A stretch of DNA of 64,000 nucleotides from Nitrospirota bacterium. GTDB lineage: Bacteria > Nitrospirota > Nitrospiria > Nitrospirales > Nitrospiraceae. Location: NCBI GenBank assembly GCA_040757595.1, contig JBFLWP010000002.1:62001-126000 (forward strand). Direction: 5' to 3'. Positions within the stretch are counted from its first letter, which is position 1, and each line of letters starts with the position of its first letter. The position numbers and the translations under genes are program-made. This document shows positions 50,407 through 64,000 of the stretch, piece after piece. The notes beneath the pieces were generated by a model. The model saw nothing but the letters and a program-made list of their open reading frames with translations, was not told where the DNA came from and made no database searches.

Positions 50407-51902
50407 GTGGCTTCCGCGCCAGGCATCTCGAGCCGGCGGGCGGCATAGAGCCGGTGCAGGTCCTGGCCCCGTTCCGTCAGGCGCTGGCGCGCGTCGAGAA
50501 AGACCCTGGCGAGCAACTCGAAGTCCCGACGGCCCACGTTGTACGAGCCGAAGCCTTCCTCCAGCCCTGGCCTGGCCCAGGCCGCCTCGTCACCCAGGTA
50601 CTGGATGAGAGCTTCCAGGGATTGCGACGTCCAGCCGCTGGCCCGAAACGTTTCGACTGCAGCCGGCGCGTCGCCTCCCACCTTGGCGGAAAGGGCTTCC
50701 TCCAGCACCTGCCTGACCGCCTGGTTGTCGCTCTTCATGAGGGCGGCTTGAAACTGGATCAACGCCCGAATCAGGCGGTTCGCCTCCGGACTGGATTCCG
50801 GCGGCAGGACGTCGGCCGCCTCGAAGGTGGCGAGCAGGGCCATGACGGTCCCCACCTGCTGGGGCGTGGCCCGGGAGCCGCTCCGGGGGAGATCCGGCGG
50901 GAGAAACATCTCGTTCGCATGACTATAGGACCCGCCGGGCTTCGGGCCGCCGCACAGGACGTACAGCCGTTCGTTGACCACGGCGGAGCCCAGCCCGTGG
51001 CGCCCGGTCGGCATCGGCGCCATGGACTGCCAGCGATCCTGTCCCGGCACGTAGGCGTCGTTATCGCGGAAGGTCCCCTCCGGCGCCTCGCCGCCCAGCG
51101 CATAGATGGTTCCTCTGAGAACCGACGCCGTCAGGCCGCTGCGCGGAACGGGGAGGTCCGCCGCCTTCGACCAGCGGTCGGCTTGGGGATCGTAGACCTC
51201 CACGACCGCCACGTTCCGGCCATAGTTCTGATTCAGACGTCCCCCGATCGCGTAGATCCTTCCTCCCGCCGACGCGGCGGCCAAGTGGTCCCTGGGGGTC
51301 GGGAGGGGAGCCCGTGCTTTCCAAGTCCGGCCGGCTGGGTCATATTCCTCGACCGCGGCGACGTTCGCCGTTCCGTCGTACCCGCCGATCGCATAGAGCT
51401 TCCCGTCCCATACAGCCACCGCCAGCGCACCCCTGGCCGTCGGCATGGCGGGCCCCTCGGTCCACCGGTCGGCGGCCGGATCGTACATATAGAGGCTCGC
51501 CACCGGGCTCCAGACGGAGAGCCACGACCTGGTATAGCCCCCGACCAAGTAGAGACGGTCTCCGAGCGAAACAAGGCCGACGTGGTGCAGCCCGACCGGC
51601 AGCGGCGCCTTGGTCGTCCAACGATCGGTCGCTGGATCATACTCCTCCACGGTGCGGCTGATCGTGGGGCTGGGCAGGTTCCCGAGGCTCGGCTCATCGA
51701 ACCCGCCGACGACGTAGATCTTGCCTCCGATGGCCGCTGCGGCCACCTCGGTCCGCTTCGTCGGAGCGGGGGAGAGGACCTGCCAGACACCCGGAGAGGG
51801 GCCGGTCTGGCCGGCGGCGGCCGCGTGGCTTACGACGGGGAGCAAGAGAAGGGAACAAAGGAAGAGCCGGCTTACAGGGCGGCGGAACCAAAGCGTACGC
51901 AT
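50400..51902 (-). CDS. Secreted Kelch-repeat beta-propeller protein
   Basis: The 500-residue protein has a signal peptide (LFLCSLLLLPVVSHAAAA) and six Kelch units of about 50 residues, each with GG after a hydrophobic strand and a YDPxxDRW ending (for example IYVVGGFDEP, YDPATDRWTTKAPLP). A helical C-terminal 130 residues follows. Kelch propellers bind proteins or glycans, or act as oxidase scaffolds. No catalytic signature is seen. The -10 box TATAAT (51916-51911 on the minus strand) is so close to the ATG that the mRNA may be leaderless. Confidence 0.88.
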   Translation of the reverse strand: MRTLWFRRPVSRLFLCSLLLLPVVSHAAAAGQTGPSPGVWQVLSPAPTKRTEVAAAAIGGKIYVVGGFDEPSLGNLPSPTISRTVEEYDPATDRWTTKAPLPVGLHHVGLVSLGDRLYLVGGYTRSWLSVWSPVASLYMYDPAADRWTEGPAMPTARGALAVAVWDGKLYAIGGYDGTANVAAVEEYDPAGRTWKARAPLPTPRDHLAAASAGGRIYAIGGRLNQNYGRNVAVVEVYDPQADRWSKAADLPVPRSGLTASVLRGTIYALGGEAPEGTFRDNDAYVPGQDRWQSMAPMPTGRHGLGSAVVNERLYVLCGGPKPGGSYSHANEMFLPPDLPRSGSRATPQQVGTVMALLATFEAADVLPPESSPEANRLIRALIQFQAALMKSDNQAVRQVLEEALSAKVGGDAPAAVETFRASGWTSQSLEALIQYLGDEAAWARPGLEEGFGSYNVGRRDFELLARVFLDARQRLTERGQDLHRLYAARRLEMPGAEATP

Positions 51903-51910
51903 GGGGCGGT

Positions 51911-51965
51911 ATTATAGCAAACCAATCCCCCTGTTATTGCAAACCTCCGGAGGGCTGCCTATAAT
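51911..51965. promoter_or_regulatory. Divergent promoter region, Kelch gene and comM
   Basis: For comM: TTGCAA (51937-51942), 17 bp, TATAAT (51960-51965), then the ATG at 51998. For the Kelch gene: TATAAT on the minus strand (51916-51911) with only a poor -35 at 17 bp. The self-complementary TTGCAA lies between. Confidence 0.65.
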
Positions 51966-51997
51966 CCCGCCGGACTCAGCCTCAGTCCTGGTGTTCC

Positions 51998-52669
51998 ATG
52001 CTGGCCAAGGTCATGAGCGCCGCCCTCGTCGGTCTCGACGCGCACCCCATCGAGGTCGAGGTGGACATCGGCGGGGGACTGCCGCAGTTCTCGGTCGTGG
52101 GCCTCCCGGACGCCACGGTGAAGGAGAGCCGCGACCGGGTCCGCGCCGCGCTCAAGAATACGGGGTTCTCCTTCCCGGTGAAAAAGATCACGGTCAACCT
52201 GGCCCCGGCCGGGTTGAAGAAGGAAGGCTCGGGATTGGATCTGCCCATCGCCGTCGGCATCCTAGTCGCGGAAGAGGTGCTCCCGGCCGAGTCGGTGATG
52301 GGGCGGACGCTGGTCGGGGAGCTGTCGCTGGACGGAAGGGTGAAGCCGATTGCCGGCGCCCTGTCCATCAGCTTGGCCTGCGCGCGGAACGGGGCGCTTC
52401 TGCTGCCGGCCGACAATGCGGCAGAAGCAGCGGTGGTGGACGGAGTGACGGCCTACCCGGTGCGGACCCTGCCGGAAGCGGTCGAGTTTCTAGGGGGGCG
52501 GTGCGCGATTCCGCCGGCTTCCGTGGACCGGCAGGTTTTGTTCTCCGAGCGGGTGAACGAGGAGGACGACTTCGCCGATGTCGTGGGCCAGGACCATGCC
52601 AAGCGGGCGCTGGAGGTCGCGGCGGCCGGCGGCCACAACCTGCTCACGTTGTGGACACAATTCCAATAA
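51998..52669 (+). pseudogene. comM: comM, 5' fragment interrupted by an insertion
   Basis: The first about 216 residues match the N-terminal half of the ComM/YifB Mg-chelatase-type AAA+ protein (VGLDAHPIEVEVDIGGGLPQ, GLPDATVKESRDRVRAAL, NLAPAGLKKEGSGLDLPIA, DFADVVGQDHAKRALEVAAA). ComM is a helicase that aids branch migration in natural transformation. Directly after GGHNLL, where the Walker A segment should begin, the frame turns into seven unrelated residues and a stop. The 3' part of comM (Walker A, B and zinc finger) is absent from the rest of the window. The retained fragment has no ATPase motif, so it is probably inactive. Confidence 0.9.
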
Positions 52670-52684
52670 AACTTGTGGCCATAT

Positions 52685-53128
52685 TCAATCACCATTACGA
52701 TCAGACCTTCCAAGCCCTACCGCAGAAGATTCGTCATCTTTATCAAGCAGTTCTGAAATCTTTCGGCTGATAATTCCACCGAGTGTCCGCAAGAAGCGAT
52801 CGGCTGCTTTATCGTCATGATGCGGACAGGTATAAGTCACTTTGAAAAGACGCGGGGGATTCCGCTTCTTGCAGCCAATGCGCTTGGGGGCTTCAGTCTC
52901 AGGTAAGGAAGTTCGTATTGATTGCTTGGCCATGGGAATGTGGAATGTCCAAACAACAGTCATCTCACCTTGCAATAAGGTATTACAGCGACGACAGGAT
53001 CCAAGAGCTTGACAAAATCGTCCTGCCTCGAATTCTCCATCATTTCCTTTTCTAGCCCGTCCGTAACATAGAGGTAGTCGTGTCTCTGCTGTAGGTCCTG
53101 CTTTCCTTTCTGGACCGAACCAACTCAT
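52685..53128 (-). CDS. Unknown Cys-containing protein at the left end of the element
   Basis: About 147 residues from the ATG at 53128 (an earlier in-frame ATG is at 53161). The product has CxxxxxCxxC (CQALGSCRRC) and TYTCPHHDDKAADRFLRTLG, a possible zinc-binding pattern. It runs opposite to the element's other genes. AT-richer than the chromosome, typical of element ends. No family recognised and the coding call is moderate. Confidence 0.45.
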   Translation of the reverse strand: MSWFGPERKAGPTAETRLPLCYGRARKGNDGEFEAGRFCQALGSCRRCNTLLQGEMTVVWTFHIPMAKQSIRTSLPETEAPKRIGCKKRNPPRLFKVTYTCPHHDDKAADRFLRTLGGIISRKISELLDKDDESSAVGLGRSDRNGD

Positions 53129-53288
53129 GATCCCACCGGTCCGTTTCTCACCGGTTTTCACCGTTCCCCGCTGATTTTCTGACCTCTCATCAATCTGACT
53201 TCCGATCGACTCGTGGCCGGAGGCCTGTTCCAGTCATTCGGTTGCCACCGTCACTCGTCTCACTCATTCAACAGAAAGGAGAAATCTT

Positions 53289-53810
53289 ATGGGCTGGTTA
53301 TTCACATCAGGAGCCAGTCGCCGTGACATCATCGCCGAGCGGATCAAGCGCTGGTCCAACGACGGCGTTGAAGCGGTTTGCCTCAAGCATGCCGTCCGCG
53401 GGAACGTCCTCTGGACGGTCTGGGAGCATCGGCATGAAGACGGCCGCACGACGCGCTTCATCGGGTGCGACCTCTTGCAATGCAAAAAGGATTGCGGGTG
53501 GGGCTACAAGGACATGGACGAATCCTGTCACCCCTATTACTTCACTTGTCCGCTGTCGTTCCTGGACATGGTGCCGCCGTCCTGTGAGCCCTGGCGGGCC
53601 AAGGTACGGGCCTACCACGCCAGGATGAACGCCGGCCGTCACCTGACGGTCGGGCAAGTGGTCAAACTGCGGGGCTGCACGATCCCCGAGATCCTGATCA
53701 TCTCGGTTCGGCCGTTACGCGGCCGGCACAACGGAATCACCTACCGGCTTCGGCGTAGCGACCTGGATTTGGACCCGGAGCAGCCGCCAATGGCTGAGCC
53801 GGCGGCCTGA
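53289..53810 (+). CDS. Mobile-element protein of the MGWLF type, unknown function
   Basis: The 173-residue protein starts MGWLFTSGASRRDIIAERI, a start I associate with small plasmid and phage proteins, and contains CDLLQCKKDCGWGYKDMDES, a Cys-rich segment. GAAAGGAGAAATC precedes ATG 53289. It is the first plus-strand gene of the element. No activity assigned. Confidence 0.65.
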   Translation: MGWLFTSGASRRDIIAERIKRWSNDGVEAVCLKHAVRGNVLWTVWEHRHEDGRTTRFIGCDLLQCKKDCGWGYKDMDESCHPYYFTCPLSFLDMVPPSCEPWRAKVRAYHARMNAGRHLTVGQVVKLRGCTIPEILIISVRPLRGRHNGITYRLRRSDLDLDPEQPPMAEPAA

Positions 53811-53897
53811 CCCTTTACGATCCTCTCGTCTACACGCTTTTACTCTGCTCACATCGTCGTTCTCTCGACCCATCTCATCACACAGAGGAGGTTTTTC

Positions 53898-54083
53898 ATG
53901 AACGGTCAACTCGTTCGGACACAACTCCGCCGCCTGTTCCCCGGGTCGTTTCTCCTGACGAAGCGCTGCCGGTGTACGGTGCACGTCTACGGCGACGGAG
54001 CCCAGGCCCCAATCAACGTGGATGCCTGTGGCCGCTGCCGGCGCTATGCCCGGTGGAAAGCGCAGCGGGTGGGGAGAGCCTGA
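53898..54083 (+). CDS. Small Cys-rich protein
   Basis: Sixty-one residues, strongly basic, with CRC (residues 24-26) and a CxxC pair (CGRC) near residue 45; probably a zinc-binding protein. AGAGGAGG precedes the ATG. TGA overlaps the next ATG (TGATG), which couples the two genes. Confidence 0.6.
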   Translation: MNGQLVRTQLRRLFPGSFLLTKRCRCTVHVYGDGAQAPINVDACGRCRRYARWKAQRVGRA

Positions 54084-54373
54084 TGAGCCGACCCTCCCTC
54101 GCGCAGCTGGGCACGGATCTGGGCCAGCTGGTCACCCAGAAGAACCAGGCCTATGGGAACTCCTGGGCCAAGACCGGAGAGTTCCTCAAGCTCTTGTTTC
54201 CGGAGGGGATCCGGCCGGAGCAGTACACGGATGCGTTGCTGCTGGTCCGGATCTTCGACAAGCAGATGCGAATCGCCACTCGGAAGGGGGCGTTCGCGGA
54301 ATCCCCGTTCCAGGACATCGCCGGCTACGGGCTGCTCGGGATGTTCAAGGACCAGACCGAGGCGGGAGGCTGA
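54083..54373 (+). CDS. DUF1599/Nmad1-like small helical protein
   Basis: The 96-residue product starts at the ATG overlapping the previous stop. Motif QKNQAYGNSWAKTGEF followed by LLLVRIFDKQMRIATRKG and DIAGYGLLG is like the nucleotide-modification-associated domain 1/DUF1599, small proteins of phages and plasmids thought to act with nucleotide metabolism. Moderate match by eye. Confidence 0.62.
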   Translation: MSRPSLAQLGTDLGQLVTQKNQAYGNSWAKTGEFLKLLFPEGIRPEQYTDALLLVRIFDKQMRIATRKGAFAESPFQDIAGYGLLGMFKDQTEAGG

Positions 54374-54374
54374 C

Positions 54375-55382
54375 ATGGCGCGACTGGCCTCGCAGGCCAA
54401 GATGGGGTTCTACCCGACCCCGCCGCTCAGCTTGGCCCGGGTCGCCGCATGGGTGCGGCCGAAAGCACGTGACCGCGACGAGCCTTACGCCTTGCTCGAC
54501 CCCTGTTGCGGGGAAGGGCAGGCGTTGAAGACCATCGCAAATCAATTCCACGCGAGTCAGACCTGGGGAATCGAGCCGGATGTCGATCGGGCGATGCAGG
54601 CGAGCCAGATCCTGCAGACGGTTGTCCAAGGCTCGATCTTCGATGCCCGGATCAATCCGCTGGCGTGCATGGGATTGCTCTGGTTGAACCCACCGTACGA
54701 TACCGAAGGTCGGGTGCGGTCGGAAGTCACCTTCTTGAAGCACGCCCATAAGTGGTTGGTTCCTGGCGGCGTCCTGGTGTTCATCGTGCCCGAGGCGATC
54801 ATCCAGGATGAGCAGACCGCCCGATGGATCGGGCGGCATTACACCCGCCTGAAGGCCTTCCGGTTGGTCACCAGCGAATACCCGCTGTTTCGGCAGGTGG
54901 TGCTGTTCGGCCTCAAACGGCCGGCGCCCGTGGAGCCGGAAGCGGCGGAGATCCTGCCGGCCGGGCCGTATCCGCACCTGGACGCCCCCAATCTGCGGGT
55001 GGTCCCCTATGAGGTTCCGGCGACCCACGGACCCTCGACCTTTCAGGCGGGGGACACCATCACGGATGAGGATTTGAGCCAGGATGCGTCCAAACTGCAG
55101 GACGACATCGCGAAGCTCTGTGCAACCGATCGGCTGGAAGCTGGCGCCCTGTCGCCTCTGTTGCCGTTGCGCAAGGGGCATCTGGTGGCGTTGCTGACGG
55201 CCGGTCTCTTGGATGGCCGGGTCGCCGGGCCTCATGGAGATCTGGTCATCAAAGGCTACTCATCGCGTGTACAGCATACGCGGGAGGAGCCTGAGGAGGG
55301 CAAGGAAATCACCACGGACACCTACGCCGTGGGGATCCGTGTCCTCGACCTTGCCAAAGGGAGTTGGTATGACATCCGGTAA
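54375..55382 (+). CDS. N6-adenine-type SAM methyltransferase-like protein (DUF6094-like)
   Basis: The 335-residue protein starts MARLASQAKMGFYPTPP, has the SAM loop LLDPCCGEGQAL (about 40-50), EPD as motif II, and the catalytic NPPY motif in LLWLNPPYDTEGR, the signature of amino-group DNA methyltransferases. It therefore probably methylates adenine or cytosine in DNA, or is a catalytically similar element protein. It overlaps the next gene by 14 bases. Anti-restriction or replication control are possible roles. Confidence 0.85.
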   Translation: MARLASQAKMGFYPTPPLSLARVAAWVRPKARDRDEPYALLDPCCGEGQALKTIANQFHASQTWGIEPDVDRAMQASQILQTVVQGSIFDARINPLACMGLLWLNPPYDTEGRVRSEVTFLKHAHKWLVPGGVLVFIVPEAIIQDEQTARWIGRHYTRLKAFRLVTSEYPLFRQVVLFGLKRPAPVEPEAAEILPAGPYPHLDAPNLRVVPYEVPATHGPSTFQAGDTITDEDLSQDASKLQDDIAKLCATDRLEAGALSPLLPLRKGHLVALLTAGLLDGRVAGPHGDLVIKGYSSRVQHTREEPEEGKEITTDTYAVGIRVLDLAKGSWYDIR

Positions 55383-55950
55383 TCCACCGTTCGTCGCCTG
55401 CACGATCCGGGGGCAGGGCGTGACGGTCCGGTCGCCGCTGGCCCTGTATGAGGCCGCGACCCCGAACCGAATTGTCCTCCTGTCGGTCTATGGCTCCCCC
55501 CAGCAGACCCGGGCCATCTCCGCCCTCTTGGCGACCGGCCAGGTGCTGCTCGCGGACGGGCCCGCCGGCCAACTGATCGAATTGCGGCGTCCTGAGCAGC
55601 TCCGGATCCGCGGCCGAGCCATCGGCTACGGGAAACAGCATCTGCTGCTGTGGGACGAGCAGATTCGCGACACGCATGTCATCTGGATGTCGCCGGATCG
55701 TAAGCTCGCCAGCCTGCAGGACGCGTTGAATCTTCGCACGATTCCATTTGACCCCGCCTGGCTGCCCGCAATGGACACGCTCCTCACCGAGGGCGACTAT
55801 TTCGAGCCGCTCGCCGGCTGGGGGCCGGCTCAGGGGTACCGGGTTCGGTGGGACGATGCCGCCATCTGCGATGCGCTGGTGAAACGGTTCGGCCAGCCTC
55901 AGCCGACCAAGGCCCCACGCCGGAAGCGAACAGTCGAACAGGCCGCCTAA
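55369..55950 (+). CDS. Element protein of unknown function
   Basis: The 193-residue product starts at ATG 55369, overlapping the methyltransferase gene by 14 bases. Beta-rich N-terminal half (RIVLLSVYGSPQQTRAISALL, LLLWDEQIRDTHVIW), basic C-terminus (TKAPRRKRTVEQAA) that could contact nucleic acid. Not recognised. Co-translation suggests it partners the methyltransferase or helicase. Confidence 0.6.
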   Translation: MTSGNPPFVACTIRGQGVTVRSPLALYEAATPNRIVLLSVYGSPQQTRAISALLATGQVLLADGPAGQLIELRRPEQLRIRGRAIGYGKQHLLLWDEQIRDTHVIWMSPDRKLASLQDALNLRTIPFDPAWLPAMDTLLTEGDYFEPLAGWGPAQGYRVRWDDAAICDALVKRFGQPQPTKAPRRKRTVEQAA

Positions 55951-55987
55951 GCAGGCGGACAATCTCAGACAAGGAGACACACGCGGT

Positions 55988-56443
55988 ATGGGATGGTATC
56001 GCTACCAGACCCTCTCGATTGATCATGCCAGCGATGACGAGTTGCGGGCGATCTACCGGGCGCTCAAGGACCACGACGACGCCCGGTATATCTTTGACGT
56101 TCCGCATGAAGAACCCAACCTCGACCAGTTGACCTGGTACGGCTGCGCGAATGAGCGCAATCCTCCGTCGTTGGTCGAGTTCTTCGGCGAGCTGAGCCGA
56201 CGGTTTCCGGCCGTCCTGTTCACGGTGGAGTGGTACGATGATCGGCCGGAGGAGGAGGCCGGCCGGGTCTACTACCGGAATGGCCGGAAGCAGGAGGTCT
56301 TCGCAGAGGTCTCTTATCCGGCCTTCGATCCCACGCGAGCCGAACCGATCGAGAGCGCGTCCCAGGGCTCCCTCAGCGTGGGGGGGCCGACCCCGGGTGG
56401 GCGGCTATGCCCAAGAGGAGGAAAGAGTTGGCCGTCCAGTTGA
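55988..56443 (+). CDS. Element protein of unknown function
   Basis: The 151-residue product starts MGWYRYQTLSIDHASDDELR after AAGGAGACAC and contains FFGELSRRFPAVLFTVEWYDD, a pattern I cannot place. Its 3' end overlaps the helicase gene by 37 bases in another frame, which supports tight operon structure. Confidence 0.55.
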   Translation: MGWYRYQTLSIDHASDDELRAIYRALKDHDDARYIFDVPHEEPNLDQLTWYGCANERNPPSLVEFFGELSRRFPAVLFTVEWYDDRPEEEAGRVYYRNGRKQEVFAEVSYPAFDPTRAEPIESASQGSLSVGGPTPGGRLCPRGGKSWPSS

Positions 56444-58614
56444 AGGAATTCCTCGAAACGTACGCGGATCAGCTGGCCGAGACGCTGGAAGCCAAGCTGA
56501 CGCCGCTCTACAACCCCGAAAAACCTACCGGGGTGGACGCCTATGCCCAACGGCTGCTGGGCTTGAAACGCCAACTGTTTCGGGTGCAGGCGGAAGTGGT
56601 GAAAGGCATGGCCAAAGCACTCTATCAGGCCGGCCGTCAACGGCTGTTCATTGTCGGCGAGCAGGGCTGCGGAAAGACCACGCTCGCCCATGCCACGGTC
56701 GCGGTCGCGCCACGGCCGCAACGGGTGCTGGTGGTCTGTCCCGGGCACCTGGTCGAAAAGTGGCTGCGGGAAGCGCGAGCCATCATTCCCGACGTGCAGA
56801 CGATCGACCTCTCAGTGCAGCACGTCATCACGATGCTGGATGAGCTGCGCACGATCCGCACGCGACCGGAGCGGCACGAGGTGTACGTGATCTCCAAGGA
56901 ACGGCTCAAGCTCAGCTACGGGTGGCGACCCGCCGCCTGGAAGAAGGGACGATACGGGGGACCGCATTGTCCCGCCTGCGGGGTACGTGCCTGCTCCGGC
57001 GATGATCTCCTCGTCTGGAGTCAGCTGGAGACGAAGCGGCGGTCCTGCGGGATCTGCGGGGAGCCGCTCTGGCAGGCGGATCCCAAGATCCGGCGCATGG
57101 CGCCCGTCGAGTACATGAAGAAACGGCTCAAAGGGTTCTTCGACGTCATGGTGCTCGATGAGGTGCACGAGCTCAAAGGCGGCGACACCCTCCAAGGGCA
57201 GGCGATGGGCGGGGTGCTCGGCTTGGCCCGACGCAGCCTGAAGCTCACCGGCACGCTCAACGGCGGGTACGCGGATGACCTCTTTTACCTCCTCTTTCGC
57301 ACCGACCCGAACCGGATGAAGAAGGATGGGTTTGAGCATGGGCAGGTCTCGTCCTTCATGGAGCGGTACGGGGTCATCGAGATCGTGAAGGATCTCCAAG
57401 ACGGGGATGATCACCGATACGGACGGGGCCGCAAGAAACAGGTCATGGTGCGGAAACGTCCAGGGGTTTCCCCTGTGGTCATTGGCCGGCATCTCCTGGA
57501 CAAGACCGTCTTTATCCGCCTGGCGGACGTGATCGACGGGCTCCCGCCCTACGAGGAGCGGGTCGTCACGATCGCCATGAATGACGAGCAACGAGCCGAA
57601 TACGCCGCGTTGGAGCGCAAGCTCCGTCAGGCGGTTCGCACGCATGGTCGTCGCGCCTTGGGTGCCTTGCTCCAATCGCTGCTGTCCTATCCCGATTCCT
57701 GTCCCCTGTTCGGCGAAGAAGTCAAGATTCGGGACCGGGTCGGCCAAGCCGTCGAAACGGTCACGGCCCCGCGCATTCAGATGCCGGCCGAGACCCTGCT
57801 CCCGAAGGAGCGGGAACTACTGGACCTGATCGCGCAGGAACGAGCTGAGGGCCGGAAGTCGCTGATTTACGTGAACTTCACGGAATCCCGCGACATTCGA
57901 CCGCGGCTCAAGTCGATCGCGGAAGCGGCCGGCCATCGAGTCGGGGTACTGGACAAGTCCATTGCGCCGAAAAAGCGGGAGGCCTGGATCGCCGACCATC
58001 AGCGCGACATTGATGTGTTGGTGACCAACCCCGAGCTCGTGAAGACGGGGCTGGATCTCTATGCCTTCCCCAACATCATGTTCTACCAGCCTGGGTATAA
58101 CCTTTTCACGCTCCGGCAGGCGGCCCGGCGGTCGTGGCGGATCGGCCAGAGCCAACCGGTCAAAGTGACGTTCTTGTGCTATGAATCCACCATGCAGAGC
58201 ATTGCGATCTACTTGATCGCCAAGAAGCTCGAGGCGGCCTTGCTGGTGGAAGGGGATCTCCCGGAAGGTCTCGCCGAATACGGCCAGAGCCATGCCTCGT
58301 TGATCGAGGAGATGGGGAAGGCTCTTGCTGACGGGCAACGGTATTCGGGGGCCGAAGCCGCCTGGGCGGAGTTCCGCAAGAAGGAGATCGAGGCGCAGCT
58401 GGCCATCGGACAGTCGGCCGATCAGCTCGAACAGATCATCCACCGCGGCCCGCCGGAGGCGTTGGGCAGCCTCACTCAGCCGAACGTCACGATCAAGGTC
58501 TCGATCCTATCCAACAAGCGCCGTAAGACCACGACATCCGTGCTGGAAGTGACGCCGGAGGATCTGGACTCGCTGGCGGAAACGCACGGAGCCCTCCAGT
58601 TCGCGCTGTTCTGA
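56407..58614 (+). CDS. SNF2-like superfamily 2 helicase/ATPase with zinc ribbon
   Basis: The 735-residue protein has Walker A GEQGCGKTT near residue 84, two CxxC zinc pairs (CPAC, CGIC) between motifs at about 187-213, the DEVH box at about 250, motif III (LTGTLNGGY), and the SNF2-type motif VI QAARRSWRIGQ near 573. SNF2-like ATPases of mobile elements remodel DNA-protein complexes or move on DNA for replication and defence. ATG 56407 lies within the upstream gene. A hairpin and small reading frame follow its stop. Confidence 0.85.
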   Translation: MPKRRKELAVQLKEFLETYADQLAETLEAKLTPLYNPEKPTGVDAYAQRLLGLKRQLFRVQAEVVKGMAKALYQAGRQRLFIVGEQGCGKTTLAHATVAVAPRPQRVLVVCPGHLVEKWLREARAIIPDVQTIDLSVQHVITMLDELRTIRTRPERHEVYVISKERLKLSYGWRPAAWKKGRYGGPHCPACGVRACSGDDLLVWSQLETKRRSCGICGEPLWQADPKIRRMAPVEYMKKRLKGFFDVMVLDEVHELKGGDTLQGQAMGGVLGLARRSLKLTGTLNGGYADDLFYLLFRTDPNRMKKDGFEHGQVSSFMERYGVIEIVKDLQDGDDHRYGRGRKKQVMVRKRPGVSPVVIGRHLLDKTVFIRLADVIDGLPPYEERVVTIAMNDEQRAEYAALERKLRQAVRTHGRRALGALLQSLLSYPDSCPLFGEEVKIRDRVGQAVETVTAPRIQMPAETLLPKERELLDLIAQERAEGRKSLIYVNFTESRDIRPRLKSIAEAAGHRVGVLDKSIAPKKREAWIADHQRDIDVLVTNPELVKTGLDLYAFPNIMFYQPGYNLFTLRQAARRSWRIGQSQPVKVTFLCYESTMQSIAIYLIAKKLEAALLVEGDLPEGLAEYGQSHASLIEEMGKALADGQRYSGAEAAWAEFRKKEIEAQLAIGQSADQLEQIIHRGPPEALGSLTQPNVTIKVSILSNKRRKTTTSVLEVTPEDLDSLAETHGALQFALF

Positions 58615-58616
58615 GA

Positions 58617-58663
58617 AGCCAGAGGCGCGGCGAAGTGGAATCCTCCATGCAGCGCCTCTGGCT
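58617..58663 (+). other. 12-bp stem-loop after the helicase stop
   Basis: AGCCAGAGGCGC (58617-58628) pairs perfectly with GCGCCTCTGGCT (58652-58663). The 23-base loop contains the ATG (58647) of a 40-residue reading frame, so translation of that frame might be structure-controlled. Confidence 0.55.
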
Positions 58664-58769
58664 GGCTGTAATACTCCTAAGAAGGCTGGGGGTTTTTGCG
58701 GTCGCTGCGACCGTTGGGTTACTGATTGCTTCGTGGCCCTATCTCAAGCGCTGGCTGCATCGTCGATAG
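58647..58769 (+). CDS. Small single-membrane-helix protein, 40 aa
   Basis: Forty residues from ATG 58647 to TAG 58769: MQRLWLAVILLRRLGVFAVA, then a hydrophobic stretch (ATVGLLIASWPYL) and a basic end (KRWLHRR). It has one predicted membrane helix and positive ends. The ribosome-binding site is weak and the start lies in a hairpin loop. A holin-, spanin- or toxin-like role is conceivable; there is no homology evidence. Confidence 0.4.
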   Translation: MQRLWLAVILLRRLGVFAVAATVGLLIASWPYLKRWLHRR

Positions 58770-58793
58770 CACCCAGTCTCATGGGTAGTTGGC

Positions 58794-58833
58794 AAAGCGT
58801 CATGGAGGAGGAATCCTCCATGACGCTTTTTTT
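58794..58833 (+). terminator. Strong Rho-independent terminator
   Basis: A perfect 16-bp stem, AAAGCGTCATGGAGGA (58794-58809) with TCCTCCATGACGCTTT (58814-58829), GGAA tetraloop, followed by TTTT (T run 58827-58833). It ends the helicase operon. Confidence 0.92.
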
Positions 58834-58853
58834 GTGCGCCCGGCCGGGCGCAC
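58834..58853. other. Perfect 20-bp palindrome
   Basis: GTGCGCCCGG followed directly by CCGGGCGCAC, an uninterrupted perfect dyad starting at the base after the terminator T run. It could be an operator or protein-binding site; no function is known. Confidence 0.7.
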
Positions 58854-59108
58854 TGACTTGATGGATGCAAAGGAGGATAGCTGAGATTGACATTCACACG
58901 GCTCACGCCGTGGGCGTTTGGCCGTAATACTTCACTAGCAGACTGTTGTTGCTGTAGGCCATTGCGGTATGGCCGAAACCTCTACGCGGATTCGTCGATG
59001 CTGTCGCACGCTGACCACGACCCACTGCGCGATCGACCTGCCTTCTTCACGAATACAGCCTTACATATCCAACACTTAACCATTTCACATCACATAAGGA
59101 GGGTTTCT

Positions 59109-59897
59109 ATGCTCGTGACCGAGCCATCTGGCACGATGACGCACGTCGTGTCTGATGGCGAAATCCTGACGGCTGTGAAGCGGAACCAGATCCTGGCCTC
59201 GTTCCAGCCGATCGTGGATCGAGACGGGGGGATTCGCAAAGCCGAGGCGCTCCTCCAGTGGGAGCATCCCCGGCTGGGACGCCTGCCGGCCCGTCTCTTC
59301 ATCGAGCGCCTGTTGGCGCTCGCCCCCAGTCGCTCCATCGTCCAGTCTCTCTGTCGGTATCTGCGCGGTCTGGATTGGCCGCTGCATCTCCGTCTCGCCA
59401 TCAATCTGGAAGTGGCCGATCTGCTGAGCACCGACACCGTGGACACGGTGGTTCAGTTAGCCGATCACCTGCCGTTGGAGGTCGAACTGTCGGAACGGGG
59501 GCCCTACGGGGACACCCTCTTGACCGACATCCAGGGCAGCCTCCGGCGTCTCAAGGAGGCCGGATGCCGCATCGCTCTCGATGATTTCGGCGCCGGCGCC
59601 ACCTCCCTGAAAATCCTGGAGCAAATCCCCGTCGATGGGATCAAGCTGGACCGACATTGGATTCAGCATGCGCCGCTCTGTCAGTCCACGGAGCAAATCA
59701 CGAAGCTGTTGATCGCGGCGGCCAAGGCCCTCAATCTCGAAATCACCGCCGAGGGCATTGAAACCAGTGAACAGGCGATTTGGTCCTACCTGGTCGGCTG
59801 TACGTTTGCCCAGGGCTGGTTTTTCTCCCGCGAACTCAACTGGGACGAGTTTCAGCGCCAGGGGTTCACGCGCTTGAAAAGTCCCGCGCAAGCCTAG
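59109..59897 (+). CDS. EAL domain c-di-GMP phosphodiesterase on the element
   Basis: The 262-residue cytosolic protein has the catalytic motifs EAL at residues 46-48, DDFGAG, KLDR and AEGIET, so it should hydrolyse c-di-GMP. It has no sensor domain. ATG 59109 is chosen because TAAGGAGGG precedes it. An in-frame TTG at 58887 would add 74 residues without domain, also behind an AAAGGAGG; that extension is Cys-run-rich and unlikely. The 255 bp before it hold a CACGGC/GCCGTG hairpin and no other gene. It could lower host c-di-GMP. Confidence 0.9.
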   Translation: MLVTEPSGTMTHVVSDGEILTAVKRNQILASFQPIVDRDGGIRKAEALLQWEHPRLGRLPARLFIERLLALAPSRSIVQSLCRYLRGLDWPLHLRLAINLEVADLLSTDTVDTVVQLADHLPLEVELSERGPYGDTLLTDIQGSLRRLKEAGCRIALDDFGAGATSLKILEQIPVDGIKLDRHWIQHAPLCQSTEQITKLLIAAAKALNLEITAEGIETSEQAIWSYLVGCTFAQGWFFSRELNWDEFQRQGFTRLKSPAQA

Positions 59898-59976
59898 GGC
59901 TGGCCTTCGTCCAGTCCTTCATCCCCTTTCAACTCAACCACACGATGATGACAGACCCAATGGAGTGGTCTACGCG

Positions 59977-61098
59977 ATGCTTGTTGAAGTGCTTTTGAAA
60001 GTGGCAGCGATAGAGGCTGAAGAGAACGAGCAGGAGTACCGACCGCGGCCGTCCGCGGCCGGACCTGAACGATGCCTTCGCCAACTCGTCTATTTTGCCA
60101 GAGGCGTGCCCAAAGAGCCCATGCTCGACCGCATGGCCTTGGTCTTCGACGACGGCCATGTCAACGAAGGCACGACGGCGAAGTGGATCGGCAAAACCGC
60201 CTTTCGGTTGCATCATCAGCAGCTGCGAGTCAAGGTCGGAACCGTCACCCACAACGGTCAGCTCTACGACATCGAAGGCTCGATCGATGGCCTGGTCTCG
60301 GACTTTCTGGGTATCACGACCTGGCTCTGGGAACACAAGGCCATCAACCGGTATACGTTCGAGGACTATTGGACCGGCAAAAAGCTGCCGCTTGATTACA
60401 TCACGCAATGTGGGTGTTACCTGTTTGGACTGGCTGCGGCCGGGTGGCCGCAGGTCACCCAAGCGCTCCTGGTGATCAAGTGCAAGGACACCAGTGATTA
60501 CATCGAGTTCCGCTTGGAATACGACCGGGACGCGGATGCGATCCGAATCCTGGAAGTGGTGCGGGCCAGTACCGCTGAACGGCGATACGACGTCGTGAAT
60601 CAGAATACCGTCTTAACCGGCGTGCGCAGGCAGGCCCTTGAGCGGTTTGAACTGGTCGAACAGTACCGGGTTACCCAAACCCTCCCGGACCGGCCATTCG
60701 TGGAACCCCAAAAGTTCCCGTGCGGGCGGTGTCAGTACCAGCAGCGGTGCTGGGACGGCTGGGTGCCGCCCAAGTTGGACGGGCGGATCGACCTCAGCGC
60801 GCAGGATGCGGCCATGGTCCTGGAGTTCGAACGGATCTCGAATGAGTTTTATCAGATAAAACGCCGACGCGAGGAACTCAGCGATCAGATCAAGTTGTTC
60901 CTCAGAGCCAATCGGGCCAAGGAGGGACTGGCTGGCGATAAGCTGGTCCGATTGGAGCAGCGGCCTCAGTCTCGCGTCGATCCGGAACTGCTGCCACCTG
61001 AAATTCGCAAGTCGGCCACCCGTGAGGTCCTGCAAGAATTCCCCAAGGTCTTGCCGGCACCCCACACGATCCTGAGGCGAGCCGACACGAAGGAGTAA
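59977..61098 (+). CDS. Cas4/RecB-like PD-(D/E)XK nuclease with Fe-S cysteines
   Basis: The 373-residue protein has an N-terminal Cys in PERCLRQLVY, catalytic Asp in EGSIDGLV, Glu-x-Lys in WEHKAIN, and a C-terminal CxxCxxxxxC (CGRCQYQQRC). This is the Cas4/AddB-type arrangement of an Fe-S stabilised PD-(D/E)XK nuclease. It probably trims DNA ends in element replication or recombination, and is not tied to any CRISPR array here. ATG 59977 is preferred (GTG 59965 overlaps the GGAG). Confidence 0.85.
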   Translation: MLVEVLLKVAAIEAEENEQEYRPRPSAAGPERCLRQLVYFARGVPKEPMLDRMALVFDDGHVNEGTTAKWIGKTAFRLHHQQLRVKVGTVTHNGQLYDIEGSIDGLVSDFLGITTWLWEHKAINRYTFEDYWTGKKLPLDYITQCGCYLFGLAAAGWPQVTQALLVIKCKDTSDYIEFRLEYDRDADAIRILEVVRASTAERRYDVVNQNTVLTGVRRQALERFELVEQYRVTQTLPDRPFVEPQKFPCGRCQYQQRCWDGWVPPKLDGRIDLSAQDAAMVLEFERISNEFYQIKRRREELSDQIKLFLRANRAKEGLAGDKLVRLEQRPQSRVDPELLPPEIRKSATREVLQEFPKVLPAPHTILRRADTKE

Positions 61099-61122
61099 TA
61101 CTCACGAGGAGGGATCGAATAG

Positions 61123-62682
61123 ATGCACACTCAGTTCGCTCAATTCACCACCGTCAAGGGGCTCTCCGATCGGATACGCCTCCCCAGACTGGGAAAGATT
61201 CGCCTTGGGATCAAGGTGATCGGCCAGAACGGAGAATACCCGAAGGATGTGCCGTATTTCGTGGTACCGCCTGAGGTCGCCAGGATCTACGGCAACGAGC
61301 CGACGGCACTGGACATCATGTTCCCGGTCAACGACCGCAATCTCATCTTCCCGCAGGCCTTCAAATACTACGGCTCATCCAAGGGGCTCAAGTGCATCGG
61401 GAACGGGGAACAGGCTCTGAGGGTTGATCCTCAAACAGGTGGACAGAAACCCTGCGAGTGCCCATGCTCGTTGCTCGAGACGAAGGAATGTCAACTGCGT
61501 GCAAACCTGATGGTCATTCTGCCCAAGGTCAATATGGGGGGCGTGTACCAGATCGACAGCACCAGTTACCACACTGTAGTGGACATCAACAGTGGGATCT
61601 ACTACGTGGAGAATCTGGTGAAGCGCTTCGCGATGGTCCCGTTGGTGCTCAAGCGTGTTCCACGTGAAACACACCCCAATGGGCAAAAGCAGATTCACTA
61701 TCCGCTCCAGGTCCATCTCGAGAATGCGGATGAGAACTTTGTCCTCAAGCTTCGCTCCGAGACCGAAGCGATCATCCAGCGGACGAGCACGCTGGTCCTG
61801 CCGGCCCCGGAAGATGTCAATCCGGAGCTGGATGAGGGGGCTACGGTGGTGCGGGAAGAGGATCTCCAGGCGCCCACAGAGGAGAACGTCATTGAAGGGC
61901 AGGCTTCGGAGACAGTCGCGCCGAGCCAGGTGACGCCAGCCGCCACTGCGTCCAAGATGCAGGCGAAGAATGAGGGATCGGCCGACGCGGCGTCATCCTC
62001 CGAGGCGGCACCGCCACCTCTGCCCTCCGGTGCTCCCATGAATGGGGGAGCGCCATCGAGGACGGAAACCGCTCCGGAACGGACCGTGCTCTCGGTGACG
62101 CTCCCGGTAAAGGGACGGTCTGGGAAGTACGGTCCCTATCAGCTGTCCGTCATGGAGGTCGGGGGGAGCCGGATATACCGTTGTTGGGAGTCCAGCTTGC
62201 CGGGCATGTTTCATGGTCAGAAGGCCATGGAGCTGATCGGGAAGCGCATCATACTGTCAGCCGAGTCGAGAGCAGGGCGGAGGCCAGGAGAGACCGAGTT
62301 CTGGATCACTCGATTCAAGGTGGATGGCCCGGGCCAGGATCCGCCGGTCGCTGCCGAAGGGACCGGTGAATCCTGGCCTAAGCCCGAGAGTCAGCCGGCT
62401 CAGACGGTGCCGCCGAGCTCCGGATCGACGCCGGCCCAGCCGTTGTCGTCCGCACCTCCAATGTCTAATGGACCTCGAATGATGTCGGAGGCGCAGAAGG
62501 GGAAGATCCATCGTCTGTGCCAGGAGAAGCAGATTCCCGAGGATCGTGTCCAGAAGACGATCCAGGGGATGACCCTTCGTGAGGCGTCCAAACTCATCGA
62601 CGCGATGACGGCCGGGGATTTCTCGGCCTTCGATCTCGCGGAGATGGAAACCTTGGGCGCGGGAGACGAAGAGCGATACTGA
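61123..62682 (+). CDS. Gp3-like (recombination directionality factor family) protein
   Basis: The 519-residue protein resembles the Gp3-like family (PF18897), named from the phage phiBT1 recombination directionality factor. Matching features are an early RLPRLGKIRLGIKV, then YGSSKGLKCIGNGEQALR, CPCSLLETKECQLRANLMV, a VYQIDST segment and RFAMVPLVLKRV. A long low-complexity linker (about 250-330) is followed by a C-terminal helical motif (SEAQKGKIHRLCQEKQ) of DNA-binding single-strand type. Some family members switch serine integrases; others may serve in replication. A terminator follows 25 bp after its stop. Confidence 0.78.
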   Translation: MHTQFAQFTTVKGLSDRIRLPRLGKIRLGIKVIGQNGEYPKDVPYFVVPPEVARIYGNEPTALDIMFPVNDRNLIFPQAFKYYGSSKGLKCIGNGEQALRVDPQTGGQKPCECPCSLLETKECQLRANLMVILPKVNMGGVYQIDSTSYHTVVDINSGIYYVENLVKRFAMVPLVLKRVPRETHPNGQKQIHYPLQVHLENADENFVLKLRSETEAIIQRTSTLVLPAPEDVNPELDEGATVVREEDLQAPTEENVIEGQASETVAPSQVTPAATASKMQAKNEGSADAASSSEAAPPPLPSGAPMNGGAPSRTETAPERTVLSVTLPVKGRSGKYGPYQLSVMEVGGSRIYRCWESSLPGMFHGQKAMELIGKRIILSAESRAGRRPGETEFWITRFKVDGPGQDPPVAAEGTGESWPKPESQPAQTVPPSSGSTPAQPLSSAPPMSNGPRMMSEAQKGKIHRLCQEKQIPEDRVQKTIQGMTLREASKLIDAMTAGDFSAFDLAEMETLGAGDEERY

Positions 62683-62706
62683 CTGCTAAGTCGTAAAAAC
62701 GCGAAA

Positions 62707-62740
62707 GGGGCACCCGGCTCAACCGGGTGCCCCTTTTTTT
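62707..62740 (+). terminator. Strong Rho-independent terminator
   Basis: GGGGCACCCGG (62707-62717) pairs with CCGGGTGCCCC (62723-62733), loop CTCAA, then seven T (62734-62740). It ends the nuclease/Gp3-like operon and isolates the repeat array from read-through. Confidence 0.94.
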
Positions 62741-62758
62741 GTTGGCCGGTCCCGGCGA

Positions 62759-63000
62759 GGCGACAAGGGATACTGGTGCATCCGGCGACAGGGGATACTT
62801 GTGTATCCGGGGACAAGGGATACTTGTGTATCCGGGGACAAGGGATACTTGTGTATCCGGGGACAGGGGATACTTGTGTATCCGGGGACAAGGGATACTT
62901 GTGTATCCGGGGACAGGGGATACTTGTGTATCCGGGAAAGCGGGATACTTGTGTATCCGGGAAAGAGAGATACTGGTGCATCCGGGGAAGCGGGATACTG
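62759..63000. repeat. Ten-copy 25-bp tandem palindromic repeat array (iteron-like)
   Basis: Ten units with an exact 25-bp period start at 62768, 62793, 62818, 62843, 62868, 62893, 62918, 62943, 62968 and 62993 (last one partial). Each has GGATACTTGTGTATCC, a 6-bp dyad around a four-base loop, and a nine-base spacer, mostly GGGGACAAG/GGGGACAGG in the first six and GGGAAAGCG-like at the end. Outer copies are TGGT/GCATCC variants. A second dyad, ACAAG-N5-CTTGT, overlaps many units. The period is not a multiple of three, so the open frames here are accidental. AT-rich DNA follows. An iteron origin or partition site is most likely. Confidence 0.9.
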
Positions 63001-63223
63001 GCCGGTTGCAAGACAATGCTGCGTGAAGTTTCTTGTTTTTATCCGAAATTCGTAGTTCATGTCCATTATCAATCATGGCCCTTCACGATTTCGGCAGGGA
63101 AACTATTTTTTTATCAGATGGTGAAAATGGCCGTAATATAACGGCGGGAGGTGTTGTTCTCGCATGGATCTACGGAACCCTCAGCCTACCTTACCACATC
63201 TCGACCGACCTCCTGCCCCCCCC
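63001..63223. other. AT-rich segment between repeat array and promoter
   Basis: About 220 bp with runs such as TTCTTGTTTTTATCC and CTATTTTTTTATCAG, clearly AT-richer than the neighbours. No gene seen. It could be the unwinding region of an origin. A few DnaA-like 9-mers (TTATCCGAA, two mismatches) occur but none is exact. Confidence 0.5.
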
Positions 63224-63257
63224 TTGACAAGCCCTCCAAATAGATATATAATATATC
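63224..63257 (+). promoter_or_regulatory. Perfect sigma-70 promoter overlaid by a palindromic operator
   Basis: TTGACA (63224-63229), 17 bp, TATAAT (63247-63252): a full consensus match. The -10 box lies inside GATATATAATATATC (63243-63257), a perfect 7+1+7 palindrome, an ideal repressor site. It should drive the sigma-like gene at 63300 and be tightly shut when bound. Confidence 0.9.
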
Positions 63258-63299
63258 ACTAGACTTGGTCGGATGGCTCCTCATCCAGGAAGACCTACT

Positions 63300-63899
63300 A
63301 TGAAGCAGGTCGAGCACTGTCCACTCGAAACACGTTTATCTCAAGCGCGGTTACGTCGCCAAGCGATAGTGCAGGGCATTTCGAGGTCGGCGCCGACTAC
63401 GCTCAAGATTGGGCGGATCGATCCTCCGCACCACGATGATCATCATGGCATTTTGCCGGTCCTCCGAAGGCACGACCGACTGCTCAAGAAATTCGCTCGA
63501 GATCGCAGGATGCTGATTACTCTGGATCCTGCCTACGACGCGGAAGACATCGAGCAGGAACTGGTGCTGGCGACCATTGAGGCGCAAAAAACCTGGGACT
63601 CCGTGCGAGGTCGGAAGACGAAATTCAGCAATCATCTCTATCTGTACGGCCAGAAGCAAATCCAGAAGATCTTCCGTGGACACGATGTGCTCGTCGATAT
63701 CATCGACAAAGAAACCGGCCACGTCATCGAGACGATGTCCCACAGCAAATTCAGCAAACGCAAGCGCACGATTGATTTCGGACGATTTGACGCGCGTTCT
63801 CGGCCCCGACTGGCGCGTGGAGTCGATCCCGAGCGAGCGACGGAACATCCCGATTCGTCGCCGGATGAGCTTGATTGCGATGATGACGGAAGGAGATAA
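63300..63899 (+). CDS. Sigma-70 region-2-like regulatory protein
   Basis: The 199-residue product is chosen from ATG 63300 (AGGAAG upstream; ATG 63273 is only 14 bp from the likely transcription start). Residues about 75-130 (LDPAYDAEDIEQELVLATIE, DSVRGRKTKFSNHLY) resemble region 2 of sigma factors, with DxEDIxQE and a RG-K-KF segment, while region 4 is absent. The C-terminus is basic, then acidic. It could redirect RNA polymerase, or be a distinct DNA-binding protein. It is transcribed from the palindrome-covered promoter. Confidence 0.6.
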   Translation: MKQVEHCPLETRLSQARLRRQAIVQGISRSAPTTLKIGRIDPPHHDDHHGILPVLRRHDRLLKKFARDRRMLITLDPAYDAEDIEQELVLATIEAQKTWDSVRGRKTKFSNHLYLYGQKQIQKIFRGHDVLVDIIDKETGHVIETMSHSKFSKRKRTIDFGRFDARSRPRLARGVDPERATEHPDSSPDELDCDDDGRR

Positions 63900-64000
63900 A
63901 GCGTTCGCCAAAATCATGGCGACCGTCCGGTTGAGGCGGAAGCATCGCGGTCACGCGGCACAATATCGCAGGCGAGCGCAAGTACGAGCCGCGCAAAAAC
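63865..64000 (+). CDS. Basic protein, partial (runs off the window)
   Basis: An open frame starts at ATG 63865 (others at 63880, 63883) in the end of the preceding gene and remains open to the last base. The visible part (AFAKIMATVRLRRKHRGHAA, then RRRAQVRAAQK) is highly basic, a DNA-binding type. Start uncertain; translational coupling with the previous gene is likely. Confidence 0.5.
   Translation, partial: MSLIAMMTEGDKAFAKIMATVRLRRKHRGHAAQYRRRAQVRAAQK

Follow-up and report, generated by a model that had tools for sequence, protein, structure and literature searches.

An F-type conjugative element in comM of a Nitrospira-like bacterium, probably inserted by the element's large serine recombinase

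What interrupts comM in this bacterium, and is the interruption real? The window, the whole stretch of 64,000 nucleotides analysed here (C2:62001-126000), comes from the 3.37 Mb, 36-contig genome of an uncultured, Nitrospira-like bacterium. Our preferred answer, with a probability of about 0.92, is that an ICE with F-type T4SS genes entered comM through the action of the large serine recombinase that it encodes. This integrase would have recombined the attP of the excised circle with an attB in comM that codes for GGHNL-LMIGPPG and lies just ahead of Walker A. The exchange would have left attL in the window and attR on contig C23 and split ComM in two, with 216 residues in the N-terminal part and 293 in the C-terminal part. 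The features at the left junction are as follows.

51998..52646, + strand: comM 5' part with the core, 216 complete codons, to GGHNLL
52641..52646, + strand: attL core TGCTCA; the same core stands at attR, C23:9551-9546
52644..52664, + strand: P' arm of attP, forming a dyad with C23:9569-9549 (15/21)

The comM 5' part encodes ChlI, the N-terminal domain, together with the opening residues of the AAA+ domain, and is 81% identical to residues 1-218 of the intact comM of a relative, G005. The open reading frame that contains it (window 51998-52669, 223 aa) matches ChlI (PF13541, E 2.9e-41) and only positions 1-27 of the 207 in Mg_chelatase (PF01078) in Pfam; after the core its frame switches to foreign sequence and reaches a stop at 52669. 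A profile search of the genome located the absent 3' part at C23:8665-9552 on the minus strand, the strongest PF01078 match in the genome (1.8e-83) and the sole strong match to PF13335 (4.5e-35), next to a gene for a 541-aa large serine recombinase. The window's own match aside, the remaining PF01078 matches have E values of 6e-5 or weaker, and thus no second intact comM was found in this genome. The two parts share the 6-bp core TGCTCA and rejoin without loss. The earlier note had proposed that a large element interrupts comM just before the Walker A codons, expected the 3' part to appear as the contig was extended, and took its absence, together with a read-pair conflict, as the mark of a bad join; the 3' part does exist, but on C23 rather than further along C2, and with the empty site described below it bears out the interruption itself.

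Seven of eight comM regions fetched from relatives carry the empty site, with the comM parts contiguous and homologues flanking them at either end (the comM of G024, counted here, looks frameshifted); the eighth, in G049, runs off its contig end. The genes flanking these empty sites are homologues of the comM neighbours on C2 and on C23, and attL and attR bound the element at this chromosomal site. Comparison with uninterrupted relatives, a check for target duplication that the earlier note had suggested, yielded nothing beyond the 6-bp core. At least 159 of 175 family genomes, source genome included, match the comM 3' part, and no other break at residues 213-218 was seen among 20 other genomes rechecked with full-length comM (16 matched), which came from among the matches listed in the family search; the comM genes of G049 and G126, ending at contig edges near residues 213-218, are left out of this count. 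Breaks at other places, frameshift-like or across separate contigs, occur in the comM of G047 (L186/L191), G117 (L180/L198), G060 (L185/L193) and G065 (L187/L197). The pN/pS of the two comM parts lies inside the range among relatives, and amino acid changes are not in excess, although near-saturated synonymous sites make the test a weak one; on this measure decay of the parts is not indicated, and either the insertion would be recent on the pN/pS scale or the parts would still be constrained.

The left junction reads CACAACC-TGCTCA-CGTTGTGG and the right junction CTCAATCG-TGCTCA-TGATCGGC, with TGCTCA common to both and lying exactly at the sequence switch. Joining the element ends gives an attP whose imperfect dyad, with 15/21 matches, is centred between the C and T of this short core, which is shared with attB; the other four centres in the core give 4 to 6 matches, and dyads at least as good occur at 13 of 106,269 background positions in the window and C23. 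A passage of PMC3783163 describes serine integrase attP sites as having a central dinucleotide and residues common to the two half-sites. The crossover dinucleotide is here most likely the CT of TGCTCA. The dyad of the rejoined comM site, attB, is weaker (11/21, equalled or exceeded at 968 of 63,950 window positions), and attL and attR score 12 and 9. An Rfam scan of window 51000-64000 gave zero matches. Given the 3' part, the shared core, the empty site in relatives and the attP dyad restored when the element ends are joined, we read comM as the attB of a serine-integrase element and the junction at 52640-52670 as something other than a bad join.

The integrase (541 aa, C23:9543-11168) lies at the element's right end and reads up to the junction. 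It carries, in the order expected of a large serine recombinase, Resolvase (PF00239, 6.2e-22), Recombinase (PF07508, 5.3e-16) and zinc-ribbon (PF13408, 2.9e-13) domains, all above cut-off. Among large serine integrases of solved structure, its best match is YokA (E 1.4e-20). Its top NCBIfam models are CcrB (3.1e-35) and CcrC (3.2e-34), at about 120 bits against a cut-off of 900. A search for close relatives gave 5 plasmid and 8 phage records at E 1e-20, all below 60% identity, and a single-protein query of viral_contigs and genome_contigs returned none. Within Nitrospirota, matches to the integrase occur in 2 of 175 family genomes (E 1e-30) and 2 of 395 phylum genomes (E 1e-40), the source genome included in each count.

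In the integrated state the integrase ends, after two core-derived residues (Cys-Ser), at a stop codon that is the TGA inside comM ATGA, and the comM 3' part could start at the ATG overlapping that stop; it could then be made as an AAA+ fragment under translational coupling. On the excised circle the integrase frame continues, with 59 residues from the core onward replacing Cys-Ser. A speculative and rather improbable extension is that the integrase senses its own integration state by reading through the attachment site, and that the element controls half of ComM; if true, this tail switch would be a simple integration-state sensor.

Related integrases cut comM in other hosts. An alignment scan of genomes recovered 61 loci with related integrases, of which three (L204, L205 and L210) have comM at E 1e-4 or better; L239, L216 and L263, with comM matches of E 1.7e-4 to 0.07, were left out of the count. 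In L204 a 42%-identical integrase is followed directly by comM residues 213-506, the two again overlapping at ATGA; in L205 a 32%-identical integrase lies convergent beside comM residues 1-216, ending at the same cut codon. The overlap is not present in L205, whose integrase sits at the other end. Both MAGs are labelled Myxococcota; L204 was seen with the comM 3' part alone and L205 with the 5' part alone. The third locus, L210, has a different arrangement and was rejected as the same case: at L210:4206-7659 (Parcubacteria) a serine recombinase adjoins a full-length comM, and on its other side stands a diverged copy of comM's first 31 codons. The insertion there may replace the comM start and leave the gene whole. 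A viral scan gave 79 loci, none with comM at E 1e-3. For the integrase tree, 69 of 144 candidates passed a length and motif filter and the best 45 by score to the query were used. The source genome (G000) and L204 group together at 100/98 and L205 falls in a neighbouring clade; a single clade of comM-cutting integrases is unsupported, with two changes needed on the tree, and the target common to the three integrases may be inherited or convergent.

The element's genes in the window, all past the left junction, are listed here.

52647..64000, + strand: left part of the element within the window, continuing on C2 to about 175.6 kb
54375..55382, + strand: DUF6094 methyltransferase (PF19587, E 8.1e-23), with a homologue in the G131 element
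56428..58614, + strand: ResIII/Helicase_C-type helicase, with a homologue in the G131 element
59977..61098, + strand: PD-(D/E)XK-like protein (Pfam below cut-off), with homologues in G131, G018 and G354
61123..62682, + strand: Gp3-like protein, recombination directionality factor-like in Pfam (PF18897, E 1.5e-41), a putative RDF
62762..62999: tandem repeat, 9.5 copies of 25 bp, just past the Gp3-like gene
63369..63899, + strand: sigma-70 region 2-like protein (PF04542, E 0.00067, below cut-off)

On C2, Pfam recognises the F-type mating-pair genes TraK, TrbI/TraB, TraC, TrbC, TraN, TraU, TraF, TraH and TraG (TraG_N), with TraC above its TIGR02746 cut-off and an IS110 gene sitting among the tra genes. 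No coupling protein was recognised on the C2 and C23 pieces; a coupling-protein-like gene lies on a third contig (C22:25034-26497; PF12696, 5.5e-11; PF10412, 1.3e-8) and has homologues in three related elements. A genome search with PF10412 came back empty at E 0.001, yet hmmscan matches this C22 gene at 1.3e-8, and absences in that search are unsafe. No relaxase was found among the proteins scanned. We suppose that the element can excise or transfer. Of two other genes on the element, one (L016:3720-6176, that is C2:163720-166176) has an N6/N4 DNA methylase domain and weakly matches Mrr-type nucleases. The other (L013:1193-4537, that is C23:21193-24537) is for the large subunit of a ribonucleotide reductase; it contains LAGLIDADG, weakly matches intein splicing and has a homologue in the G131 element.

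The F-type elements of three Nitrospirota relatives (G131, G018 and G354) carry a TraC 49-53% identical to that of the present element, and all three have homologues of the C22 coupling protein (55-61%) and a Gp3-like protein; G131 and G354 also have homologues of a primase and an AAA protein. The Gp3-like protein of these elements comes with no homologue of the integrase in the stretches fetched. The best matches of these elements' genes fall on C2, on C22 (the coupling protein and, in G131 and G354, the primase and AAA protein) or on C23 (ribonucleotide reductase, beta-clamp-like and other proteins). This pattern fits one element spread over the three contigs; possibly, the C22 part belongs to a second element. 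The matched stretches sum to ~93 kb (C2 61.0 kb, C22 16.5, C23 16.0), a sum rather than the true element size. Several points count against our reading: the ends lie on different contigs without one sequence spanning the element, C2 passes from it into what by eye resembles core chromosome, the scan showed no relaxase, the candidate coupling protein is on C22, the attB dyad is weak, and no single clade unites the three comM-cutting integrases.

Among the alternatives, the one that survives best is a refinement of the serine-recombinase insertion and compatible with it, namely that the insertion is genuine but the element is now an immobile remnant, broken up by a chromosomal inversion, one end of which falls within it. 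We consider this possible, at well under even odds. The pieces on C2, C22 and C23 each stand beside other DNA, an IS110 gene lies among the tra genes, and the scan identified no relaxase. Past about 185 kb, C2 carries genes that by eye resemble core chromosome, including one at C2:185363 that we take to be hpnH; comM and this gene are ~71 kb apart on C2, but in five relatives (G016, G131, G045, G091 and G006) 0.7-1.34 Mb of contig separates them. Against a remnant, the integrase frame is intact, as are the two att sites, the comM parts lack excess amino acid changes (subject to the saturation noted above), and the same facts would follow from a misassembly near C2:176-185 kb, a stretch with clustered short repeats, caspase-like genes and genes that by eye resemble toxin-antitoxin systems. 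The choice lies between a chromosomal inversion through the element and a wrong join in this stretch of C2; neither synteny upstream of hpnH nor GC skew decides between the two, and the question leaves the window junction untouched. Caspase-like genes stand near both element breaks (L016:18151-19881, L017:1824-3601 and L013:9546-11303), one with an FGE-sulfatase domain, one a broken second copy of it (just below cut-off) and one with ankyrin repeats.

The passage of C2 from the element into core chromosome means that another join on this contig may be wrong, and this lends some colour to an assembly chimaera at 52640-52670, in which comM would be intact and unrelated sequences joined. We nevertheless regard an error at the junction as ruled out for practical purposes, and as very improbable at best, since the 3' part stops precisely at the shared core, the attP dyad re-forms when the two ends are joined, relatives hold the empty site, and the same break recurs in two other MAGs beside related integrases. 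Least probable of all is a Tn7-like (AbaR/Tn6022) or Tsy transposon guided to comM by a TnsF-type selector: such comM insertions are well described, in part in PMC10293859, but they target the Walker B region whereas comM is cut here ahead of Walker A, the junction is bordered by a serine recombinase gene, and none of the 58 Pfam-scanned proteins, which include part of the element's genes, matches Tns or other Tn7/AbaR transposition genes, as the earlier note's remark that the element's genes are not of AbaR type would lead one to expect.

The preferred reading, an ICE inserted by its serine recombinase, has precedents. Serine recombinases are already known to favour comM's gene family, and this locus is a well-resolved new example. 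In excerpts describing known insertions we read the target gene as comM/yifB, the same family; the present case differs in the cut before Walker A, the Nitrospirota host and the conjugation genes, the codon not being given in those excerpts. Among the titles listed in a literature search of partial coverage, none names a serine-integrase insertion at the comM Walker A. AbaR islands/Tn6022 and ZooTsy, as described in sections of PMC10293859 and PMC7508600, are likewise large mobile elements interrupting comM; in Tn6022 and ZooTsy, TnsF acts at the conserved Walker B region of comM, where a passage of PMC10293859 places its binding, whereas here a serine recombinase acts before Walker A. SCCmec Ccr and the Dehalococcoides ssrA islands (PMC3146451, in part) also use large serine recombinases, and CcrB/CcrC are the best models for our integrase; it scores far below the family cut-offs, and their target genes are different.

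The interruption probably costs the host its ComM function. In two A. baumannii strains, according to PMC7508600, transformation rose about 300- and 1,000-fold once comM had been cured of AbaR, and mobile elements in comM are discussed together with transformation in parts of PMC4774983. By analogy, reduced transformation through ComM loss is plausible in the source bacterium and might, as the earlier note proposed, protect the element. The interpretation from which this work started is partly supported, and the serine recombinase and the F-type conjugation genes are new additions to it. An apparently broken gene is resolved into an insertion with both att sites, and related serine integrases cut comM at one codon in one Nitrospirota genome and two Myxococcota-labelled MAGs. 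Codons as conserved as these would make a suitable target for a broad range of hosts, and, alongside the Walker B region of TnsF elements, the site would represent another conserved anchor in comM.
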